Assembly (NCBI GenBank): GCA_026991065.1
Contig: JALXCG010000011.1
Span: 1 to 9,343 of the forward strand
Source of the DNA: JALXCG01 sp026991065 [NCBI: Gemmatimonadota bacterium]
GTDB taxonomy: Bacteria; GCA-2686955
Direction of reading: 5' to 3'
DNA: 9,343 bases
Each line of letters opens with the position of its first letter. Position 1 is the stretch's first letter. Below, in pieces: positions 1 to 9,343 of this stretch. A model generated the notes under the pieces. The model was not told the DNA's origin. It saw only the letters and a program-made list of their open reading frames with translations, and did not search any database. Both the position numbers and the translations under genes were made by a program.

Positions 1-509
1 CCACTGAATTCATGCGGGTAGCGGAACGCCTGCTCACCGGTGAGTCCGACCTTCTCCAGCAGCCAGGCAACCTTTTCGTTGCGCTCGGCGCGCGACATCT
101 GCGGCGCGTGGACCGTGAGCGGCTCGGCGATGATGTCGCCCACCGACCAGCGAGGATTGAGCGAGGAGTAGGGATCCTGGTAGATCATCTGGATCTCGGA
201 GCGCACCGGCCGCATCTCCTGCCGCCCCAAGCGGACCAGGTCGATGACTTCTCCGCTCTTGCGGCGAAACAGGATCTTGCCGCCGGTAACATCCACCAGG
301 CGGAGAATCGCTTTGCCGGCGGTGGTCTTGCCGCAGCCGGACTCACCCACCAGGCCGAGGGTTTCGCCCTTGCGGATGTTCAAGCTGATGCCGTCGACCG
401 CTTTTACCTCGCCCACGCGGCGCAGGAAAATTCCGGCATGAATCGGGTAGTGGACCTTGACCGATTGCATCTCCAGGATGTCGCTGGAGCGCATAGAGAT
501 GCCGCTCAT
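1..509 (-). CDS. oppF: Peptide ABC transporter ATP-binding protein, OppF/DppF type (partial, 3' end beyond left edge)
   Basis: Reading the minus strand from the ATG at 509-507 gives 169 codons that stay open to the window edge. The product is the second cytoplasmic ATPase of the peptide importer; it would pair with the OppD-like ATPase and hydrolyse ATP to drive uptake. Visible parts are the N-terminal Opp-type segment ([10 protein letters not shown], about residues 17-26), Walker A GESGCGKT at 55-62, and the Q-loop context [12 protein letters not shown] around 108-119. The last visible residues, YPHEFS, run into what should be the ABC signature. Walker B and the C-terminal domain lie outside the window. 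The start is set by a GGAGGAG ribosome-binding site five bases upstream and by the ATGA overlap with the preceding ATPase gene, which implies translational coupling. In E. coli yejABEF the two ATPase halves are fused in YejF; here they are separate. The family call is secure; assignment as oppF rather than dppF is by type only. Confidence 0.92.
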
Positions 510-1516
510 GAGTTCTCCTCCACGCCACCCGGCTCCACCAAGTGACAGCGACAGAAACGGCCGGGGCGAACTTCGATCAACTCGGGCTCCTCCGTATCGC
601 AGCGGGCGATGCGCTCTGTGCAGCGCTCAGCAAATTTGCAGCCGGCCGGCATGTTGAGAATGCTGGGGACAATGCCGGGAATCGTTTCGAGGCGCCGCTT
701 CGGCTCGCGATCCGGCCGCGGCAGCGAGGCCAGCAGGCCACGGGTATAGGGATGCAGCGGTTCGCGGAAGAGAGGGCCGACCTCGGCGATCTCCTGGATC
801 TTGCCGCCGTACATCACCGCCACTCGCTCACAAGTTTCGGCGACCACCGCCAGGTCATGCGTGATCAACATGATCGAGGCGCTGCCGGTTTTCTTGCGGA
901 CATCGAGCATCAGCTCCAGGATCTGGGCCTGGATGGTGACGTCGAGGGCGGTGGTGGGCTCATCCGCGATGAGGAGCGCGGGGCGCATGGCGAGCGCCAT
1001 GGCGATCATGGCACGCTGACGCATGCCGCCGCTGAACTCGTGCGGGTAGTTTTTCAGCCTGCGGCGGGCGTCGGGGATGCCGACCAGGTCGAGCATCTCC
1101 GCCGCCAGATTCCGCGATTCTTCGGAACTCATGGCGGCGTGGTGAATGATCGCCTCGGTGAGTTGAAAACCGATGGTGAAGACCGGATTCAGCGCGGTCA
1201 TCGGCTCCTGGAAGATCATCGAAATGTCATTGCCGCGGATCTTCTGCATCTCCGCATAGCTGAGATCGAGCAGGTTCTGACCGCGGAAGAGGATTTCGCC
1301 GCTCTCGATGCGCCCCGGGGGGTTGGGGATCAGGCGCATCACCGAGAGTGAGGTGACCGATTTGCCGCTGCCCGATTCCCCGACCAGGCCGAAAACCTCG
1401 TTTTCGTAGATGTGGAAGCTGACCCCATCGACCGCCTTCGCGGTTTGCCCCTCGACATCGAAGTAGGTGCAGAGGTCATTGACTTCAAGGATCTTCTTGC
1501 GCGTTTCGTTACCCAT
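506..1516 (-). CDS. oppD: Peptide ABC transporter ATP-binding protein, OppD/DppD type
   Basis: This 336-residue cytoplasmic ATPase energises the peptide importer. All ABC motifs are present and look intact: Walker A GESGSGKS (46-53), Q-loop glutamine near 103 (IFQEPMTALNP), signature SGGMRQ (162-167), Walker B LLIADEP (181-187) with catalytic Glu186, D-loop (TALD) and switch His220. The C-terminal oligopeptide-transporter domain (about 255-330) has the LHPYTRGLL and IPGIVPS landmarks and a cysteine set C293, C299, C306, C322 and C324. Recently characterised OppD/DppD proteins bind an iron-sulfur cluster with equivalent cysteines; cluster binding here is inference. Length is normal for the family. 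The gene starts 9 bp after the YejE-like permease stops, and its TGA overlaps the ATG of the OppF-like gene. The ribosome-binding site is weak (TTAGG, overlapping the upstream stop), so translation may depend on coupling. Confidence 0.96.
   Translation of the reverse strand: MGNETRKKILEVNDLCTYFDVEGQTAKAVDGVSFHIYENEVFGLVGESGSGKSVTSLSVMRLIPNPPGRIESGEILFRGQNLLDLSYAEMQKIRGNDISMIFQEPMTALNPVFTIGFQLTEAIIHHAAMSSEESRNLAAEMLDLVGIPDARRRLKNYPHEFSGGMRQRAMIAMALAMRPALLIADEPTTALDVTIQAQILELMLDVRKKTGSASIMLITHDLAVVAETCERVAVMYGGKIQEIAEVGPLFREPLHPYTRGLLASLPRPDREPKRRLETIPGIVPSILNMPAGCKFAERCTERIARCDTEEPELIEVRPGRFCRCHLVEPGGVEENS
515..521 (-). promoter_or_regulatory. Ribosome-binding site for the OppF-like ATPase
   Basis: On the minus strand this reads GGAGGAG, five bases before the ATG at 509. 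It lies inside the last codons of the upstream oppD-like gene. It supports this ATG as the true start and fits translational coupling through the ATGA stop/start overlap. Confidence 0.75.
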
Positions 1517-1525
1517 GTGATCTGC

Positions 1526-2923
1526 CTAACGGAGCCGCGAAAAGACTTTGGGATCGAAGGCTTCGCGAACAGCTTCGCCGACAATCACAACGCTGTAGAG
1601 GGTGAGTGCCAGAGCCACTACCGGCACCAGGACCAGGTAGGGATAAAACTTCACATTTTCCAGGCCTTGATGCAGCAGGGCGCCCCAACTCGGTGTTCCC
1701 GGGGGCAGGCCGAAGCCCAGGTAGTCCAGGCTGACGAGAGAGCTGATGTAGGCAACAATTCCAAACGGAGCAAATGTCACGACCGGAACCAGAGAGTTGG
1801 GCAGGATGTGCTTGACAATGATCTTCCAGTCGGAGACCCCGGAGCCGATTGCTGCCTGCACATAATCCTTGGATTTCTCCCGGTAGAACTCACCGCGAAC
1901 GTAGTAGGTGATGCCCAGCCAGGAGCGCAACACGATCATCAGCGTGGCCAGGATCATGAACGACGGCGTCATCAATGAGCCGATGATCATGATGGTGAAG
2001 AGGAAGGGGATGCTGCCCCAGATCTCGACAAAACGCTGCATGCCGATGTCGGTCCAGCCACCGTAGTAGCCCTGGAGACCCCCGACGATGATGCCGAAAG
2101 CGTAACCACAGACCGATACCAGAAGCGCGAACGAGAGCGAGATGCGGAAACCATAGACCAGAAGGACCAGAACATCGCGGCCCGCAACCGTGGTTCCCAG
2201 CGGAATGCCCAGTTTCCAGGAGGGGGCATTGGGAGGCGGGGAGTCGAAATCGTGGCGCAGGGAAGCGGGAGAGTAGGGATAGAGGGTCGGGACAATCCAG
2301 GCGTCGCCGCGGGCAAAAGCATCCTTTGCGGCGACCAGTTCGTCGTAGAGCCGCTGGCGTTTGGTGACCATCGCCTGGCGCTGCTCGTAGCGGGCCTTCT
2401 GGAATTCGCTGGCGTCGGCCGCCGGTGGAGTAAGCTTCTCGAAGCGTCGCTTGGACTTTTCCAACTGCTCCGCGGACGCTGCCAACTGTTCGTCCAGCAG
2501 CGAGGGATCGGCACACATCTGGGCGAAGAGGTGATAGTCCACCTCTCCTGAACCATTCTGTGCAAACTCCTCCTTCGGCAGAAAGAGTGATGCTTCGTAG
2601 AAGGGAATCGCTTTGTTGATCCATTCCTGGACCGCGGGGAAGCGGGTCTGGTCGTTGAAGTGGATCGCCAACGGACGCTGGTTAACGATCAACTCGAGGA
2701 AAAGCGAGATCACAAAGAGGGTCGAGATGGCGATGAACGACCAATAGCCGCGACGAATGCGCTTGAAGCGCATGATTCGCTTCTGCGTGATCGGGGTCAT
2801 CTTCAGGGAGAATCCCAGCAGACGCCCGACCGCGACATACGCCTTGGGGATGCCGCGCGTAGTCAGCCACAGGCCGCCGCCAAAGACTATGAATAGATAG
2901 AGGATCTTCCATGCAGTCGCCAC
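1526..2923 (-). CDS. yejE: Peptide ABC transporter permease, YejE/OppC-like, with additional N-terminal helix and periplasmic insert
   Basis: This 465-residue inner-membrane permease forms the transport channel with the YejB-like protein. The start is GTG, supported by an AAGGAG site eight bases upstream. The OppC-type N-terminal core begins near residue 42 (MTPITQ, then RFKRIRRGYWSF), matching where E. coli YejE begins, with its first core membrane helix at about 61-80. The permease domain covers about 240-460: LQGYYGGWTDI, the EAA loop (about 354-376, YVQAAIGSGVSDWKIIVKHILP) contacting the ATPases, SLDYLGFGLPPGTPSWG, and the C-terminal IVGEAVREAFDP. Two features are unusual: about 41 added N-terminal residues with a hydrophobic segment (5-21), and a charged helical region (about 141-205) in the large periplasmic loop. 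YejE of E. coli is about 340 residues. The usual LGTD motif reads LGTT (242-245). Family assignment is firm; YejE rather than generic OppC is by remembered similarity. Confidence 0.93.
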   Translation of the reverse strand: MATAWKILYLFIVFGGGLWLTTRGIPKAYVAVGRLLGFSLKMTPITQKRIMRFKRIRRGYWSFIAISTLFVISLFLELIVNQRPLAIHFNDQTRFPAVQEWINKAIPFYEASLFLPKEEFAQNGSGEVDYHLFAQMCADPSLLDEQLAASAEQLEKSKRRFEKLTPPAADASEFQKARYEQRQAMVTKRQRLYDELVAAKDAFARGDAWIVPTLYPYSPASLRHDFDSPPPNAPSWKLGIPLGTTVAGRDVLVLLVYGFRISLSFALLVSVCGYAFGIIVGGLQGYYGGWTDIGMQRFVEIWGSIPFLFTIMIIGSLMTPSFMILATLMIVLRSWLGITYYVRGEFYREKSKDYVQAAIGSGVSDWKIIVKHILPNSLVPVVTFAPFGIVAYISSLVSLDYLGFGLPPGTPSWGALLHQGLENVKFYPYLVLVPVVALALTLYSVVIVGEAVREAFDPKVFSRLR

Positions 2924-2931
2924 GGCGAACG

Positions 2932-2937
2932 CTCCTT
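2932..2937 (-). promoter_or_regulatory. Ribosome-binding site deciding the GTG start of the YejE-like permease
   Basis: The minus strand reads AAGGAG here, eight bases before the GTG at 2923-2921 and just after the TAG of the YejB-like gene. The alternative internal ATG, which would start the protein at MTPITQ like E. coli YejE, has no comparable site. The long form with its additional N-terminal hydrophobic helix is therefore favoured. Confidence 0.75.
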
Positions 2938-2938
2938 T

Positions 2939-4030
2939 CTAGCTGAACCGAACCCGTGGATCGACCAGGGCGAGTACGATGTCGGAAATGATGTTTCCGG
3001 TCAGCCGGATCAAGACACCGAAGGTCATGATTCCCATGAGCACCGGATAGTCGCGCTCAACCAGCGAATTGAAGCCAAGCAGGCCCATGCCGGGAATGTT
3101 GCAAGTCTTCTCGATCAGGAAAGAGCCGGCGAAGAGCAGACCGATCGCGTGCCCAACCCCGACACAGATGGGGATCAGAGAGTTGCGCAGGGCATGGACG
3201 AAGACCACGCGCTTTTCGCTCAGCCCTTTGGCAAAAGCGGTCCGCACATAGTCGGAGCCGAGATTGTCCAGAAGACTGTTCTTCATCAGAATGGTCATCG
3301 TGGCGAAACCGGCCAGCATGTAGGCCACCAGGGGGATGGCGGTATGGGCCAGTTGGTCTTTGATGCACCACCAGTAGGCCCCCTGGGCCCACATCTCGTC
3401 CCAGCCGGCGGAGCGAAAATCTCCCAGGGGGAGAAACTGCATGCCGTAGTTGTCGGTGGCAAAGAGCAGCATCAGCACCAGGGCAGCGACAAAACCGGGA
3501 ATCGAGTAGCCGAGAAAAACCACGACGGAGGTTGCGGTATCGAAGAAGGTGCGATGCTCCAGCGCCTTCTTGACCCCGAGCGGAATACAGACCAACCAGG
3601 TTGCGATGTAGCCGATGAGGCCGAAGTAGATCGAAATCGGGAACTTGGAGACAATCGTAGCGAGGACCGGGTCGCCGTAGCGATAGGACATCCCCATGTT
3701 TCCCTGGAGAATCCCGTTGAGCGCGCCGCCGGCGGCATCATCCGGCCAGAGTCCCAGCCAGATCAGGTAGCCGACCGGGATTGCGCGATCGAGCTTGTAA
3801 TAGCGCTTGAGTTGATCCATCGCCTCCTGCGGCAGATCGTAGGAGCCGGTCTCGCCAAGGGCCGCCGCGCCTCCGGCCCCGCCTTCAGCCATCGCCTGCT
3901 GCTGGATCTGTAGCTGGGCCTGTTCGATGGGGCCGCCCGGGGCCAGCCTCATGAACAGATAGATGACGAAGGTGATGCAGACAAAAGTGACAGGAACCAG
4001 CAGGATCCGCCGAATGAAGTAGCTTGTCAT
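2939..4030 (-). CDS. yejB: Peptide ABC transporter permease, YejB/OppB-like
   Basis: This 363-residue inner-membrane permease matches the length of E. coli YejB (364). It opens with the classic OppB-type N-terminus MTSYFIRRILLVPVTF and the first helix (about 8-27), followed by LAPGGPIEQ (29-37). A Gln/Ala/Gly-rich periplasmic stretch (38-60) leads into YYKLDRAIPVGYLIWL. Further helices fall at about 132-152, 166-190, 228-249, 284-306 and 328-350. The EAA cytoplasmic loop is at about 261-287 (YVRTAFAKGLSEKR then HALRNSLIP), and the protein ends with the typical LVDPRVRF. I take ATG 4030 as the start because it matches the family. A GGAGGA site sits 17 bases from this ATG but only 8 bases from an in-frame TTG at 4039-4037, which would add three residues (M-H-G). 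The open frame extends further upstream, but that part is not credible coding sequence. The gene pairs with the YejE-like permease 15 bp downstream. Confidence 0.94.
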   Translation of the reverse strand: MTSYFIRRILLVPVTFVCITFVIYLFMRLAPGGPIEQAQLQIQQQAMAEGGAGGAAALGETGSYDLPQEAMDQLKRYYKLDRAIPVGYLIWLGLWPDDAAGGALNGILQGNMGMSYRYGDPVLATIVSKFPISIYFGLIGYIATWLVCIPLGVKKALEHRTFFDTATSVVVFLGYSIPGFVAALVLMLLFATDNYGMQFLPLGDFRSAGWDEMWAQGAYWWCIKDQLAHTAIPLVAYMLAGFATMTILMKNSLLDNLGSDYVRTAFAKGLSEKRVVFVHALRNSLIPICVGVGHAIGLLFAGSFLIEKTCNIPGMGLLGFNSLVERDYPVLMGIMTFGVLIRLTGNIISDIVLALVDPRVRFS

Positions 4031-4161
4031 GCCATGCAACTTGGGGTTCCTCCGGGCAAGTAGGGGAAACACTGTCGGCGCCGACCGATTGTGCCGCCGC
4101 CGGCAGCGTGGGGGTGGGATCGACTCATGAGCGGCTCGCCGCCGGGACCACGCCTGGCTTC
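4031..4161 (-). other. Intergenic gap between yejA-like and yejB-like genes with small GC-rich inverted repeats
   Basis: These 131 bases contain no credible gene. Three short perfect inverted repeats are visible: the 12-bp palindrome GTCGGCGCCGAC (4074-4085), a 5-bp stem with 4-base loop TGCCG-CCGC-CGGCA (4092-4105), and GCGGC-TC-GCCGC (4131-4142). No T-run follows them on the minus strand, so none looks like an intrinsic terminator. Hairpins at this position, between a binding-protein gene and its permease genes, often allow the binding protein to be made in excess through mRNA processing or partial termination; applying that here is inference. The yejB ribosome-binding site lies at the far end. 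Confidence 0.5.
4048..4053 (-). promoter_or_regulatory. Ribosome-binding site of the YejB-like permease, optimally placed for a TTG start
   Basis: The minus strand reads GGAGGA. The spacer is 8 bases to the in-frame TTG at 4039, 17 bases to the ATG at 4030, and 12 bases to an out-of-frame ATG at 4035. By spacing alone the TTG is the best initiator; by family comparison the ATG is expected. The two products differ by only three residues. Confidence 0.6.
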
Positions 4162-6006
4162 CTAGCCCCAGGGTTTGACGATTACTTCGCCCTGCGGCAG
4201 CGACTGGTCCGCCTTCATCGCGGCGTCCAGGGCGGCTTCGCGCTCGGGATCGAACCACCAGAGCTGCATGATCTCCTCCTCCGGCTGCTGGCCGATGCGG
4301 GAGATGTAGGTGTCCGGATGGCCGAAGCGATCCCAGTAGAGAATCCGCATGTAGTTGCTACCCCAAGCGAGGGCGTAGGGATGCTCGTTGAAGACGATGG
4401 AGTCGATCTCGCGCGTGATCTTCTTCTGCGAGGGGCGATCAAGCGTCATATCGTAGAGCTTGAGCAGGGAATCGACCTTGGCGTTCTTGAAGCCGCAGAC
4501 GTTGTTGTTGTGCGGAAGGTCGGCCAGATCGGAGCGCCACGAAGTTTCCGGGTTGGGAAAGAGCAGGGCGCTGAAACTCTGGAAGGTGACATCGAATTGA
4601 CGCTCGCCCACCTTCTTGAAGAGGGTGGAGGGATCGATCAGTTTCAGGTTGAACTTGATCCCCGCCTCTTCATAGTCCTCCTTGACGATCAGCCAGATCC
4701 GTTCCCAGGCTTGGGAGCCATATTCGAGCGTAATCTCGAACTGCTTGCCGTCCGGGCCCACCAGATAGCCGGCGTCATTGCGGGTTTTGTAGCCGGCTTC
4801 CCAGAGCAGCTCTTCGGCGCGGTCGGGGTCGAAACGGATTTTCGGATTGGTATCTTCACTGCCCCAGTCACGCCCCGGATAGTAAGAGTCGAGAAATGTG
4901 TATTGATTAAAGAAGAGCTTCTCCATCAGGCGCTCGCGGTTGAAGAGGTGGGCGAAGGCCAGGCGCACCCGCCGATCATTAAAGGGCGGTTTGCGCATGT
5001 TCATGGCAAAGCCGCTGATGCCTTGCGGTGCCTGGTTGTAGATCTTGCGGCGCTTGACCCAGCCCTTCTTGATCACATTCTCGCGCGGCAGATCCTGGAC
5101 CCAGCGCTGAGCCCGCGTGGCGCGATAGAAATCCAATTCGCCCGCTTTGAACTTCTCGTACTCCAACTCCTGATCACGGATGACCGAGAAGGTGATCTTC
5201 TTGAAATTGTAAGTGTTCTTGGCCCACGGCTCGTTCTCCGCCCACCAGTCGTCGCGGCGGGTCAGAGTGAGAGAATCCCCCTTCTTGAGGTCGCCCTCTT
5301 TCAGAATGTAGGGGCCGCTGCCCGGCATCATCTTCCAGTTGTACTCCTTCAGGAATTGCTCCCCGGGGATGTGCACATACTTTTCCGGATAGATCGCCAT
5401 GCCGCCGAAATAGAGGAAGAGCCGCCAGTTGGCCTCTTTGGTGGTGACCTTGATGGTGTAGGGATCGACGATCACCGGCTCCTGGTAGTTTTCGGCGAAG
5501 GTCATGCGGTTGGAAGGGTCGTTGCGATCCTCCTGCACCCGGTGCCACCAGGAGTAGTAAACATCCTTGGCGGTGACCGGAGCGCCATCGGAGAAATGCG
5601 CGCGCTGATCCAGCCGGAACCAGAAGGTCTGGGTGCCGTCGGGGTTCTGATCGATCTTCCACTCTTTGGCGAGGAGCGGGATGTACTCTTCGGTGTCGGG
5701 GTGGATGCCGATCATCGATTCGTAAACCAGGGCGTTCACCGCGGCGATCGACACTGAGTTGGAGTTCGGCCCCTGGCGCCGGAGAGTGTTGGGGAAGGCC
5801 CGCCAGACCACCGGCAGCGCTTTGTCGCTGGTGCGCAGGGCGCGGGGATCGCCCAGCGGACGGTAGTCGCCGCCGTTTTGCCAGCCGTCGGTGGCGTGCG
5901 CGGAGGGCGCTGTGAATGCCAGATTGAGTAGCAGCGCCGTACCACCGGCGACCAGGGTTCGAAGAAGCGGGCGGAAGGGGAGTGGGGATCGAACTGCTCG
6001 TGGCAT
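4162..6006 (-). CDS. yejA: Periplasmic peptide-binding protein of ABC importer, YejA-like (solute-binding family 5)
   Basis: This 614-residue periplasmic receptor delivers peptides to the YejB/YejE-like channel. E. coli YejA is of similar length (about 604). A Sec signal peptide is evident: basic start MPRAVRSPLPFRPLLR, hydrophobic core LVAGGTALLLNLAF, and a likely cleavage after SAHA (A38). There is no lipobox cysteine, so the protein is soluble rather than a lipoprotein. Family 5 landmarks include ALVYESMIGIHPDTEEYIPL, the conserved LDQRAHFSDGAPVTAKDVYYS stretch near 150-175, GSGPYILKEG, and the YejA-type RRDDWWAENEPWAKNTYNFKKI followed by EKFKAGELDF. Family members typically bind oligopeptides, and YejA orthologues import microcin C; the real ligand is not predictable. 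The ATG at 6006 has no good ribosome-binding site, but no upstream in-frame start is evident. It heads the operon and is divergent from the TonB receptor gene. Confidence 0.94.
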   Translation of the reverse strand: MPRAVRSPLPFRPLLRTLVAGGTALLLNLAFTAPSAHATDGWQNGGDYRPLGDPRALRTSDKALPVVWRAFPNTLRRQGPNSNSVSIAAVNALVYESMIGIHPDTEEYIPLLAKEWKIDQNPDGTQTFWFRLDQRAHFSDGAPVTAKDVYYSWWHRVQEDRNDPSNRMTFAENYQEPVIVDPYTIKVTTKEANWRLFLYFGGMAIYPEKYVHIPGEQFLKEYNWKMMPGSGPYILKEGDLKKGDSLTLTRRDDWWAENEPWAKNTYNFKKITFSVIRDQELEYEKFKAGELDFYRATRAQRWVQDLPRENVIKKGWVKRRKIYNQAPQGISGFAMNMRKPPFNDRRVRLAFAHLFNRERLMEKLFFNQYTFLDSYYPGRDWGSEDTNPKIRFDPDRAEELLWEAGYKTRNDAGYLVGPDGKQFEITLEYGSQAWERIWLIVKEDYEEAGIKFNLKLIDPSTLFKKVGERQFDVTFQSFSALLFPNPETSWRSDLADLPHNNNVCGFKNAKVDSLLKLYDMTLDRPSQKKITREIDSIVFNEHPYALAWGSNYMRILYWDRFGHPDTYISRIGQQPEEEIMQLWWFDPEREAALDAAMKADQSLPQGEVIVKPWG

Positions 6007-6093
6007 CGGGGAGTATCCAAAAGGGTGAGCGCGGTGCGCCGGGACCGCGGGAGGGGTGGACCAGCCGTCTGCAGAGGGCCGAGATCGAAAATG

Positions 6094-6123
6094 TGCATAC
6101 CGGAACGTGCCAGTCTAACGCAA
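6094..6123 (-). promoter_or_regulatory. Weak candidate promoter for the peptide-importer operon
   Basis: On the minus strand TTGCGT (6123-6118) is followed after 18 bases by TATGCA (6099-6094), about 90 bases upstream of the yejA-like ATG. Each hexamer matches the housekeeping consensus at only its first three positions, so this is a position-plausible guess rather than a clear promoter. Confidence 0.2.
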
Positions 6124-6275
6124 AGCGAGGCCAACATCACCAACCGCCTTCTCTTCACCCTTCGATTTCCGGCCGGGATGCCGCAACTCTGCGACAAATC
6201 ACCACATCTTGCGTGCCTCTCTTTGTCTCTAGGATTCGGGCGAATGATTTGCAGACTGTTTACGTCTCGAATGAT

Positions 6276-6282
6276 GAGGAGA
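6276..6282 (+). promoter_or_regulatory. Ribosome-binding site deciding the start of the copper receptor
   Basis: GAGGAGA lies eight bases before the ATG at 6291, and a signal peptide begins at that ATG. The open frame continues upstream to 5982, but this site and the signal peptide show that translation begins at 6291. Confidence 0.8.
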
Positions 6283-6290
6283 TTCTGGTC

Positions 6291-8204
6291 ATGCGGCGAA
6301 TGTTTTTGGTTCTCTGGGCTGTCCTGGGGCTCGGCGCCGGCGGGGGTGCGCAGGCGGGGGCTCAGGAGGTGGTGGCCGATTCCCTGGTGGTCACCGAAGA
6401 CGCCCGGGTGATGCGACGTTTCTGGTTGGAACCCATTGTGGTTACGGCGACGCGCATGGACCTGGGGGGGGCGCTGCTCCTGCCGGGCAAAGAGGACATC
6501 CGCCGACTCTTTGACGGCCATGGCTTCGGCACGGTCAATCGTGGCAGCGCGCTGGCGATGGATCTCTACGCCGATGGCCTGAAGCGGGCCGATCTGCCGG
6601 TGCTGCTGGATGGCGAGCGATTCCCCGCCGCCTGTCCCAATCGGATGGACAATCCCTGCACCCGCATCAATCCGTTGGAGATTGCGGCGGTGGATCTGAG
6701 CAAGACCTGTTGCGGCCCGGGGGCCGGCCTGGGCGGGCAGGTGGAGTTTCACCGCGACCATCCGGCGCAGAAACCGCAACTGCGGCTGACCTTCGCCGGT
6801 AGCGGCGGGGCGACTTCCGGGGCCGACGCCGCGCTGGCCGCCGATGCCGGCGGCTATCGCCTCTCCGCACGAGTGCTCGACACCGAACCCTACACGGATG
6901 GCGGCGGTCTCGATTTCACCGAGCGCTACGACTACGCAGTTGCTCCCCGGGAGAAGCTGGGGGAGATCTCACTCTTCGGCGAACGCGGCGATCTGACGCA
7001 CGGGATCACCTACTCCAGCACCCGCGATGTTGCTTTCCCTTACCTGCGCATGGATGAGCGAGAGAACGAATTCTGGAGCGCTTTCGGCTCCTGGCGCGGG
7101 AACAAGCTCTACCTCAATCACACCGACCATACGATGGACAACGGCCTGCGCACCGGCGCGATGATGATGGCGATGGAGACGGTGACCCGCAACTGGACCG
7201 CGGGTCTCACCGGCGCAGGTTACGAGTTGTTCTACCGGCACTGGGATGCCGACAACTACCTCGCCAAGAGTGATGGCTCAATGCGCGTCGACAACCACAT
7301 GCTGCCCGACCTGAACCGCTACTCCGGGCGTGTCTTTCGCACCTTTTCGCTGACTCGCGCGCTGTCGCTGCAGGCGCGGCTGGGGTATCAATGGGACCGT
7401 GCCGGAGAGGCGTCGCGCATCGAGTTCATGCGGCCGCTCTATCCAGATGCCGACGCGGACCGGGGGTTCCTGGTGTGGGGAGCGGGCGCCAATTGGGTGC
7501 ACTCGCTCACTTCAGGCTGGAGCGTCGGCCTGCTGGCGGAAATGGTGACCGAGCCGCCGCAGCCGCAGGAACTCTTTATTGCCGTGCAGAAGCTGGGCGA
7601 CAAGCCCTGGTGGAGCGGGAACCCGGAACTCGATGCACCGCTGCGCGCCACGGCCCGGGTGCAGTTGCGCTCGCCGGAGGTACGCATTGAGGGCTACTGC
7701 AGCCGGGTCGATGGCTACGTCGTGCCTCTGCGGCGCACCACCGCCGACCACGCCTATCTCACCTACGGCAATGCCGATGCGATTCTGGCCGGCGCCAATC
7801 TCGACCTCGACTGGACCTACTTCCAGGCTTCCGCGAGCATCGGCTACGGGCAGAATCTGAGCGGCGCCAATCACCCGCTGGCCGAGATTCAGCCGGCCAC
7901 CGCCTCACTTAAGGGGTTGACTCCGGTCCGCTTCGGTGCCCAGGCGTTTCTCCGCTGGAGCGTTGCCGCCGAGCAGAATCGCGTGGATTCGACCCTGAAT
8001 GAAGCCCCCACTCCAGCCTGGCAGCGCTTCGATCTCGGACTGTCGGGCGGCTGGTCGCGCATCGACCTGCAACTGGAGGTGGAGAATCTCCTCGACACCG
8101 CCTACTACCGTCACCTTGGCTATCTGCGCGATCCGTTCGCCTCCGGAGCCCGGGTCTATGACCCGGGGCGGACCCTCAGGGTGAGGCTGGCCTACGGCAT
8201 TTAG
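6291..8204 (+). CDS. oprC: TonB-dependent outer-membrane receptor with OprC/NosA-type copper-binding signature
   Basis: This 637-residue outer-membrane protein should import copper using TonB-transmitted energy. The signal peptide is MRRMFLVLWAVLGLG with cleavage near residues 22-24. A TonB box-like segment EPIVVTATR lies at 47-55. The plug (about 60-155) contains ACPNRMD: C115 and M119 form the CxxxM half of the copper site known from Pseudomonas OprC. The barrel supplies the HxM half, H280-T-M282, in LNHTDHTMDNGLR. Barrel landmarks include KPWWSGNPELDAPLRATARV and the C-terminal VENLLDTAYYRHLGYLRDP and VYDPGRTLRVRLAYGI; the last residue is Ile rather than the usual aromatic. Additional plug cysteines C123, C140 and C141 are unusual. 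P. stutzeri NosA, a related protein, is linked to copper supply for nitrous oxide reductase. The gene is divergent from the peptide importer and convergent with the cytochrome gene. Copper specificity rests on the motif, not on experiment. Confidence 0.88.
   Translation: MRRMFLVLWAVLGLGAGGGAQAGAQEVVADSLVVTEDARVMRRFWLEPIVVTATRMDLGGALLLPGKEDIRRLFDGHGFGTVNRGSALAMDLYADGLKRADLPVLLDGERFPAACPNRMDNPCTRINPLEIAAVDLSKTCCGPGAGLGGQVEFHRDHPAQKPQLRLTFAGSGGATSGADAALAADAGGYRLSARVLDTEPYTDGGGLDFTERYDYAVAPREKLGEISLFGERGDLTHGITYSSTRDVAFPYLRMDERENEFWSAFGSWRGNKLYLNHTDHTMDNGLRTGAMMMAMETVTRNWTAGLTGAGYELFYRHWDADNYLAKSDGSMRVDNHMLPDLNRYSGRVFRTFSLTRALSLQARLGYQWDRAGEASRIEFMRPLYPDADADRGFLVWGAGANWVHSLTSGWSVGLLAEMVTEPPQPQELFIAVQKLGDKPWWSGNPELDAPLRATARVQLRSPEVRIEGYCSRVDGYVVPLRRTTADHAYLTYGNADAILAGANLDLDWTYFQASASIGYGQNLSGANHPLAEIQPATASLKGLTPVRFGAQAFLRWSVAAEQNRVDSTLNEAPTPAWQRFDLGLSGGWSRIDLQLEVENLLDTAYYRHLGYLRDPFASGARVYDPGRTLRVRLAYGI
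8149..8167. repeat. Perfect 8-bp GC-rich inverted repeat (hairpin) at the convergent 3' ends
   Basis: CCCGGGTC, a TAT loop and GACCCGGG form a perfect 8-bp stem with a 3-base loop. It lies inside the receptor gene shortly before its stop, and just downstream of the cytochrome stop on the minus strand. No T-run follows on either strand, so it is not a standard intrinsic terminator. It could stabilise or pause transcripts at the convergent junction. It also encodes the VYDPGR motif common near the end of TonB receptors, so it may be incidental. Confidence 0.5.
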
Positions 8205-9343
8205 CGAGCGGCGCCCGCACCTGTTCCGGCCCATGGCACTGGAGGCAGACCCCAACCCGAAGAACCCGCTCGCGCGTCTCCGGCGGAAGCGGCCGCAGCC
8301 AGGTTCGGGTGGCCTGCGCGGGCGCCCCGGTCGGGGGTCCGAAGGGGATCCAGGCATCGGCCGGCAGGCCGTCGGCGAGGGCTTCATACTCCGGGGTGAA
8401 GCGCCAGCCGGCCGGATCCTCCGCCGGTAGTTCGAGGCGGCCGCGGCCCCATCCCAGCGCCAGCGATGACAGGTGGCAGGAGCGGCAGTCGCGCCCTTTG
8501 CGCTGCACCGTATGCGGCGCGGTGGGAGCGTAGAGACGGCGCAACTTCCCCGCGCGGCGCAGTTGCTCCGGATCGCCGCCGGCGCTGTCCGCGGCGGCCG
8601 CGAGCCCCAAGGTCATCACCATGCCGGGGACCGCGCCGACAATTCGCCGGTCGCGCTGATCTTCGGCCAGAACCGGCGGTTCCGGCAGAAAGAGCCCCAC
8701 ATACTCGTCCCAATCGGCGCCCGTGCCGCGCTGCGTGTGGCAGGCGATGCATTGCGGCGCCCAGCTGTTGTGGCAGATGGCGCAGGAGAGGCGCCGGTGC
8801 TCCGCCCGCGAACAGCTTTCCGCCGGTGCCGCCAGCGGCCAGCGCTCCCCGGCGCCGCCGGGGCCGCGTTTGCGCTCCAGCACCGGTCGCCCGGCGGCAT
8901 CGAGAAAGGCGTTGTTCAGCGCGCGACCGCTCTTGGCGATGCGCAGGAAGCGCCGCTGTGGTTGCGCCGCCCCGTAGCGCCGCCGCACCACCCGCCGGGT
9001 TTCCGCATCCACCTCGGCCCAGCCCAGGGTCGCCGCGGGACCGTGGAAGTGACAGTCGGCGCAAGCGATCTCTACCTGCTCGCCGGCATGCTGATGGATC
9101 CGGCCGTCACCCATCACCTCGCGCGAGGTGTGGCAGTCGATGCACTCCAGCCCGGCCCGGTGGTGCAGATCCTCCGGCTGGCGGGCAAAAACCCGGCCAT
9201 CCGCCAGGAGCCGCAGCGAATCGCTCGCCGCCGCCGCCACCGCCTCCGGATCCAGCGTGGTCTCGTGCCAGCCCTCATAATTGGTGCTGATGCGCCCGGA
9301 GCGGTTGTGGCAGCCGAAACAGTGCGCACTGCTTGGCGCCGGT
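8176..9343 (-). CDS. Multiheme c-type cytochrome (partial, 5' end beyond right edge)
   Basis: The frame is open to the right edge, and the visible 389 codons hold seven heme c attachment motifs. In protein order they are CFGCH (9307-9321), CIDCH (9130-9144), CADCH (9049-9063), CAICH (8770-8784), CIACH (8737-8751), CRSCH (8473-8487) and CLQCH (8233-8247). Such proteins are exported, have heme attached in the periplasm, and carry electrons to or from respiratory partners. Several non-motif histidines could be distal ligands. Heme density is low: linkers are about 54, 22, 88, 6, 83 and 75 residues, with only the NSWAPQ-linked pair close together. I do not recognise a named family. The Met that would begin at 9240 is internal, because the frame and a heme motif continue upstream. 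No signal peptide can be judged. The stop overlaps the 3' end of the receptor gene by 29 bp, tail to tail. Confidence 0.9.
   Translation of the reverse strand, partial: PAPSSAHCFGCHNRSGRISTNYEGWHETTLDPEAVAAAASDSLRLLADGRVFARQPEDLHHRAGLECIDCHTSREVMGDGRIHQHAGEQVEIACADCHFHGPAATLGWAEVDAETRRVVRRRYGAAQPQRRFLRIAKSGRALNNAFLDAAGRPVLERKRGPGGAGERWPLAAPAESCSRAEHRRLSCAICHNSWAPQCIACHTQRGTGADWDEYVGLFLPEPPVLAEDQRDRRIVGAVPGMVMTLGLAAAADSAGGDPEQLRRAGKLRRLYAPTAPHTVQRKGRDCRSCHLSSLALGWGRGRLELPAEDPAGWRFTPEYEALADGLPADAWIPFGPPTGAPAQATRTWLRPLPPETRERVLRVGVCLQCHGPEQVRAPLAKCRRPASP

Follow-up and report, generated by a model that had tools for sequence, protein, structure and literature searches.

What does the TonB-dependent receptor encoded in this DNA take up, and which enzyme does its cargo serve? 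The stretch analysed here – the window, 9343 nucleotides long – is an entire contig of a genome of 4.1 Mb in 902 contigs, 83.8% complete with 1.3% contamination. Its kin in our sample amount to one genome of the same family (G001), the others sharing only the domain, and its class has two genomes; with so few relatives, the lineage counts as rarely sampled. A preliminary description, made from the letters alone, credited the receptor with the four-ligand copper site of OprC from Pseudomonas aeruginosa and pointed to additional cysteines in the plug. The features concerned are the following.

6291..8204, plus strand: TonB-dependent receptor, OprC/NosA-like, 637 aa (reading frame, profile match to OprC)
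6291..6365, plus strand: probable signal peptide, about residues 1–25 (inferred from sequence)
6426..6455, plus strand: Ton-box-like segment LEPIVVTATR, residues 46–55 (alignment with relatives)
6633..6647, plus strand: C115xxxM119 (ACPNRMD), plug half of the putative copper site, aligned with OprC C143 and M147; codons 6633–6635 and 6645–6647
6657..6659, plus strand: C123, private to the window protein, at OprC T151 by alignment
6708..6713, plus strand: C140–C141, in the loop replacing KGP, at OprC P168 and Q169 by ungapped count
7050..7055, plus strand: M254–D255 of FPYLRMDER, equivalent of OprC Met286
7128..7136, plus strand: H280xM282, barrel half of the putative copper site, aligned with OprC H323 and M325; codons 7128–7130 and 7134–7136
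7161..7175, plus strand: MMMAM, residues 291–295 (M291–293, M295), equivalent of the OprC methionine track M338–M343
3–6006, minus strand: divergent peptide-type ABC operon of two ATPases, two permeases and a binding protein (family models, all below cut-off)
8176–9342, minus strand: convergent multihaem cytochrome c fragment with seven CxxCH motifs, cut by the contig end (ExtM-like, 135.5 bits against a cut-off of 800)

The receptor and its copper site

The ATG at 6291 was chosen as the start because a signal-peptide-like stretch comes next; the frame itself stays open upstream to a GTG at 5982. Every residue singled out in the preliminary description stands at its stated position. The segment LEPIVVTATR, a motif of the Ton-box type, is aligned in relatives with LEPVTVRTP, LESVTVTAP and LDPVSVMAT. 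Four short inverted repeats were all that the upstream DNA showed: no Rfam match exceeded the gathering score, the stretch from 5950 to 6420 yielded no promoter of the sigma-70 type, and reading the three plus-strand frames ahead of the gene revealed no Cys-rich leader.

Searched alone, the window protein is too divergent for a direct match to OprC: it hit neither a PDB chain (E ≤ 0.001) nor a Pfam family (E ≤ 0.1), and L064, a member of the same clade, reached 14.7 bits against the Plug family, cut-off 23.9. Against TIGR01778, the equivalog model for TonB-dependent copper receptors, it scored 63.4 bits for a cut-off of 472.45 (L064, 55.3 bits), for which reason we file it as an OprC-like variant and not under the equivalog name. 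A profile built from four clade members (the window, L002, L014 – the same as L028 – and L064), and so free of OprC-type rows, found OprC in all six of its PDB matches at E ≤ 0.001, the best at 2.5e-19, and aligned ACPNRMD, the HxM/Met segment and the end of the barrel with OprC, the HxM piece by itself being weak (E 1.1, against 2.5e-19 for the whole match). When L064 was exchanged for L015 and two Marinomonas receptors, the hit on OprC improved to E 1.8e-146, a value partly carried by the Marinomonas rows, and covered positions 39–633; homology therefore spans both plug and barrel.

In the profile alignment with 6fok, C115, M119, H280 and M282 fall on C143, M147, H323 and M325, which PMC8610252 gives as the copper ligands of OprC, 180 residues separating C143 from H323. 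The corresponding count from C115 to H280 is 165, close to that of OprC as had been claimed, and the four residues are invariant in an alignment of the window protein with five relatives. Because of this invariance and of their coincidence with the OprC ligands, we take the four-ligand site for a genuine homologue of the OprC site and not for a product of chance. The 29 receptors tabulated below were collected by the CxxxM–HxM motif itself, so that their sharing it proves nothing. AlphaFold2, run on 11 sequences, gave a mean pLDDT of 37.3 and a pTM of 0.32, too poor for counting barrel strands or for distances between the cysteines and the site.

The methionines around the HxM motif extend the likeness. 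A [YF]xxxxMD segment precedes HxM in 28 of the 29 receptors (L004 being the exception), at a distance of 37 residues in 21, of 34 or 35 in three and of 26 in the four members of the window's clade. The OprC methionine at 37 residues ahead of H323 is Met286, whose counterpart in the window is M254, and MMMAM aligns on OprC M338–M343 in the profile alignment, so that, measured against OprC, the methionine track of the window protein consists of M254 and M291–M295. Section 9 of PMC8610252 lists Met286, Met339, Met341 and Met343 of OprC as silver ligands. It also names Met348, which is an Asp when counted from H323 in 6fok and is probably a misprint or a numbering slip. The Met-rich stretch is thus present where it had been described and is explained as an OprC-type track.

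In a quick maximum-likelihood tree of 40 receptor rows, from which five Marinomonas near-copies had been dropped beforehand and OprC itself left out, the window protein groups with L029, L002 and L028 at an SH-aLRT of 100. Ligand cysteine and histidine are exactly 165 residues apart in each of the four, against 180–202 in the other 25 receptors, and the four have FPYLxMDER and a plug segment [IL]DGE in common; the identity of the window protein to the other three is 32–39%. By sequence, they form a divergent clade within the known OprC/NosA-type receptors. One phylum, with five sampled genomes (G060 and G052 included), contributes L002 and L028, whereas L029 belongs to a phylum with two; in the phylum of G107, one of two genomes matched. 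Scanning a further 385 genomes, drawn as a second sample, with the clade profile returned seven matching genomes, all at known places and without a new member, and a scan of viral sequences found no relatives; the clade accordingly rests on four sequences. The receptor gene of G052 (contig C59; L014, L022) is split into frames of 449, 165 and 105 aa, through either a sequencing error or pseudogene formation, and L014/L028 was aligned as the 449-residue piece. On the same tree CxxxM needs four changes, and L038, L039, L041 and L047 have HxM without CxxxM, which makes the motif an imperfect marker.

Possible clients of the receptor: N2O reductase or oxidases

We regard the receptor, with a probability of roughly 0.75, as an OprC/NosA-like protein that brings ionic copper across the outer membrane by means of TonB and whose main client is probably the N2O reductase NosZ. 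The outer-face methionines M254 and M291–M295 would collect copper, probably as Cu(I), and C115, M119, H280 and M282 would catch it between plug and barrel; energy supplied through TonB would then rearrange the plug and release copper into the periplasm. The NosZ in question would be the Sec-dependent (clade II-type) enzyme encoded in the genome itself, and cytochrome oxidase would come second as a client. Of this picture, the homology, the conserved ligands, the co-occurrence with NosZ and, for one clade member, the linkage to a nos cluster are shown by the data; that the substrate is copper, that transport runs inwards and that NosZ is the client is inferred.

NosZ was sought with TIGR04246, the model of the Sec-dependent enzyme, labelled clade II. 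It scored above cut-off in the clade genomes G107 (960.9 bits), G060 (952.9 bits, the match containing one internal TAG) and G052 (941.3 bits). The window's genome has a fragment that scores 377.8 bits for 244 positions and lies at one end of contig C802, 3285 bases long; its neighbours there, as read from the sequence, are a dihaem cytochrome and, resembling those of the other nos clusters, a membrane protein. Sec-dependent NosZ is accordingly found in four of four clade genomes, that of the window being a fragment assigned by binning alone (a separate contig, in a bin 83.8% complete).

Linkage is closer in G107, where a one-strand run comprises a cytochrome c, NosZ, a membrane protein, a NosL-like protein, NosD, an ABC ATPase, a permease, a Cys-rich protein, the receptor and an Rrf2-type regulator; NosZ and NosD score above cut-off there, NosL and NosY being recognised by reading only. 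The receptor of this clade member lies inside the nos cluster, with only the Rrf2-type regulator after it. Distant receptors of G054 and G064 stand at the end of nos clusters (NosZ above cut-off, the other genes by reading), which brings the arrangement to three genomes of different families. The window shows no nos genes beside the receptor before the contig ends at 9343, and in the stretches read of G052 and G060 receptor and nos genes occupy separate contigs.

Among 386 genomes, NosZ at E ≤ 1e-40 occurs in nine of 17 with a CxxxM–HxM receptor and in 30 of the 369 in which none was found (p 6e-6 by Fisher's test, a value that ignores kinship); above the curated cut-off, the figures are 7/17 and 23/369. 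The receptor genomes number at least 17, up to three candidates per genome having been scored; reading the scan's other matches, all but a second-best place in G232 (a genome already among the 17), showed none with the motif. A link between the receptor and N2O reduction is therefore plausible.

It is also possible, if distinctly less probable, that the importer serves mainly haem-copper oxidases or the general copper supply, both receptor and NosZ merely marking respiring bacteria. COX1 scores above cut-off in nine of the 12 genomes examined, the whole clade included, and the three such matches in the window's genome make an oxidase a fair rival as client. NosZ at E ≤ 1e-40 is missing from eight of the 17 genomes with the receptor, G015 – the tree row nearest to the clade – has neither NosZ nor COX1, and section 13 of PMC8610252 places OprC/NosA in non-denitrifiers too. 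What tells against an indirect association is the receptor's place in nos clusters of three families, together with the same-family genome G001, which has COX1 but in which the receptor was not found and NosZ gave only a weak match (1.4e-4); at 84% completeness, however, its absences carry less weight.

Extra cysteines and neighbouring genes

Whichever client the putative copper importer serves, the additional cysteines of its plug call for an explanation. Apart from C115, C123, C140 and C141, the window protein has a single cysteine, C470. C123 is peculiar to the window among the 29 receptors, and the loop that stands for KGP reads CCGPGAGLGG in the window, CCAASCGLGG in L002, NTSAACGLSG in L029 and GQAASAGLGG in L028, with cysteines at 140/141, at 140/141/145, at 145 only and nowhere, respectively. 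A loop cysteine thus occurs in three of four clade members against none of the 25 other receptors, 11 of which are Marinomonas near-relatives; in those 25 the 45 residues that follow the ligand cysteine are free of cysteine, and 16 have a literal KGP, as expected from the earlier remark that relatives usually show a cysteine-free KGP-type turn. At the mean cysteine frequency, the chance that three of four sequences would carry a cysteine somewhere in six positions is about 9e-5, a figure computed after seeing the data and treating the four sequences as independent. The loop cysteines are clade-specific but not fixed.

With R133 as the counterpart of the K in KGP, C140 and C141 would sit at the plug–barrel lock, away from the apex bearing the copper site. 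The check proposed in the preliminary description, an alignment with OprC, likewise has the four ligands coincide and C123 and the loop cysteines fall elsewhere (T151, P168/Q169); by alignment, then, the KGP-type loop with C140/C141 would lie at the lock and off the site. The description's proposal that the extra cysteines form a second copper site, a disulfide or a redox gate finds no support, though their restriction to this clade leaves some chance of a role; most likely the loop cysteines are a peculiarity of the clade with no role in the primary site. A disulfide or redox-sensitive gate made of C123 and C140/C141 appears unlikely: three cysteines lie inside 19 residues, the clade is enriched in loop cysteines (on the post hoc figure above) and disulfides introduced into the FepA plug block transport, according to a review (PMC11658791), yet C123 is missing from the 28 other receptors and, with one loop cysteine in L029 and none in L028, the clade has no fixed pair. 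Speculative, and with long odds against it, is the idea that the clade's loop, with its CC, CCxxxC or lone C, could act as a thiol site relaying copper from CxxxM–HxM as TonB moves the plug; if true, such a relay on the exit path would make the receptor a two-station copper importer.

We see no reason to tie either neighbour of the window receptor to its function. The ABC operon matches nickel, oligopeptide and Yej-type models, its two ATPase frames being recognised by reading only. Methanobactin uptake offers a parallel for the import of a copper chelate or metallopeptide that would be handed to such a system, the gene of whose binding protein (4162–6006, matching nickel, opine-metal and oligopeptide families) is divergent from that of the receptor. 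We hold this to be improbable: the binding protein and both permeases remain below cut-offs, the permeases come nearest to microcin C (Yej) models and match over their C-terminal parts only, no such operon was recognised beside the receptor in L002, L022, L023 and L064 (by eye, from protein starts) and an OprC-type site fits bare ions. Uptake of another soft metal (silver, mercury) or of zinc is very improbable, for although OprC binds silver at the same site too (PMC8610252, section 9) and the type to which the convergent cytochrome belongs takes its name from selenite/tellurite reduction clusters, the ligand set and methionine track match those of a measured copper importer, and the cytochrome, far below its cut-off, was not found in G001, G052, G015 and G060.

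The surroundings of relatives' genes show two further recurrent types. A small Cys-rich, apparently exported protein lies upstream of the receptor gene in five relatives:

L064, 6569–7075, plus strand: small Cys-rich protein
L098, 5447–5839, minus strand: small Cys-rich protein
L131, 4602–5003, plus strand: small Cys-rich protein
L132, 4650–5111, plus strand: small Cys-rich protein
L133, 8987–9445, minus strand: small Cys-rich protein

These proteins carry a Pro-Pro motif towards the C-terminus (DIFRPPR, DIFHPPRA, KPPNRP and others) and have no Pfam match at E ≤ 0.1. They resemble the CXXC + RAPP layout of the copper-sensing CruR leaders, downstream of whose genes OprC-type receptors occur, as PMC9426467 reports, and by analogy could be an unrecognised leader family. 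The second type, lipoprotein-like and with a Met/His motif of the MDMGxMxHxAP kind, is encoded immediately before the receptor gene:

L098, 4403–5263, minus strand: lipoprotein-like protein
L132, 5347–6189, plus strand: lipoprotein-like protein
L131, 5171–6100, plus strand: lipoprotein-like protein
L099, 4096–4908, minus strand: lipoprotein-like protein

Those of L098 and L132, the two scanned, both have YtkA-like domains, and the group comprises possible periplasmic copper partners of the receptor. As a separate observation, the nos cluster of G054 has, by eye, a tyrosine phenol-lyase/tryptophanase-like gene between the NosL-like gene and NosD (L098, 9071–10627, minus strand).

Relation to known receptors and significance

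Among receptors of established type, the window protein shares with OprC (PDB 6fok, 6z8s and others; PMC8610252) the CxxxM plug and HxM barrel motifs, the Met-Asp ahead of HxM and the Met-rich run after it. It differs in length (637 aa with signal peptide, against a chain of 723 residues), in the spacing already given – 11 of the 15 missing residues lie between the Met286 equivalent and the His – and in its CC loop, which is three residues shorter than the KGP loop. NosA of Pseudomonas stutzeri, known here by description, is likewise a copper receptor tied to N2O reductase (PMC8610252 and PMC7558416), and PMC8610252 describes the copper signature as conserved in it. CrtA/BfrG shares TonB-dependent copper import, but CrtA, again by description, imports chelated copper and belongs to a sequence cluster apart from OprC (PMC12914433). 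ZnuD of Neisseria meningitidis, also compared by description, has a metal site placed like that of OprC and is a zinc importer (PMC8610252, section 13).

MbnT is another receptor for TonB-dependent copper import. The NosZ of P. stutzeri is of the TAT type, whereas the fragment found in the window's genome is of the Sec-dependent type. A literature search brought up papers on OprC, NosA, CrtA and CruR, but among its titles and passages there was no account of this clade or of CxxxM–HxM receptors in Sec-dependent nos clusters; as subscription papers lay largely outside the search, this is weak evidence of novelty.

The known range of the OprC/NosA copper site now includes a clade whose phyla are rarely sampled and which curated models leave unnamed, and CxxxM–HxM receptors are linked to nos clusters of the Sec-dependent (clade II-type) kind. 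The conserved equivalent of Met286 sharpens the CxxxM–HxM signature as a means of searching for such receptors. Copper shortage can limit N2O reductase, and knowledge of these receptors may thus help to predict which bacteria remove N2O when copper is scarce.
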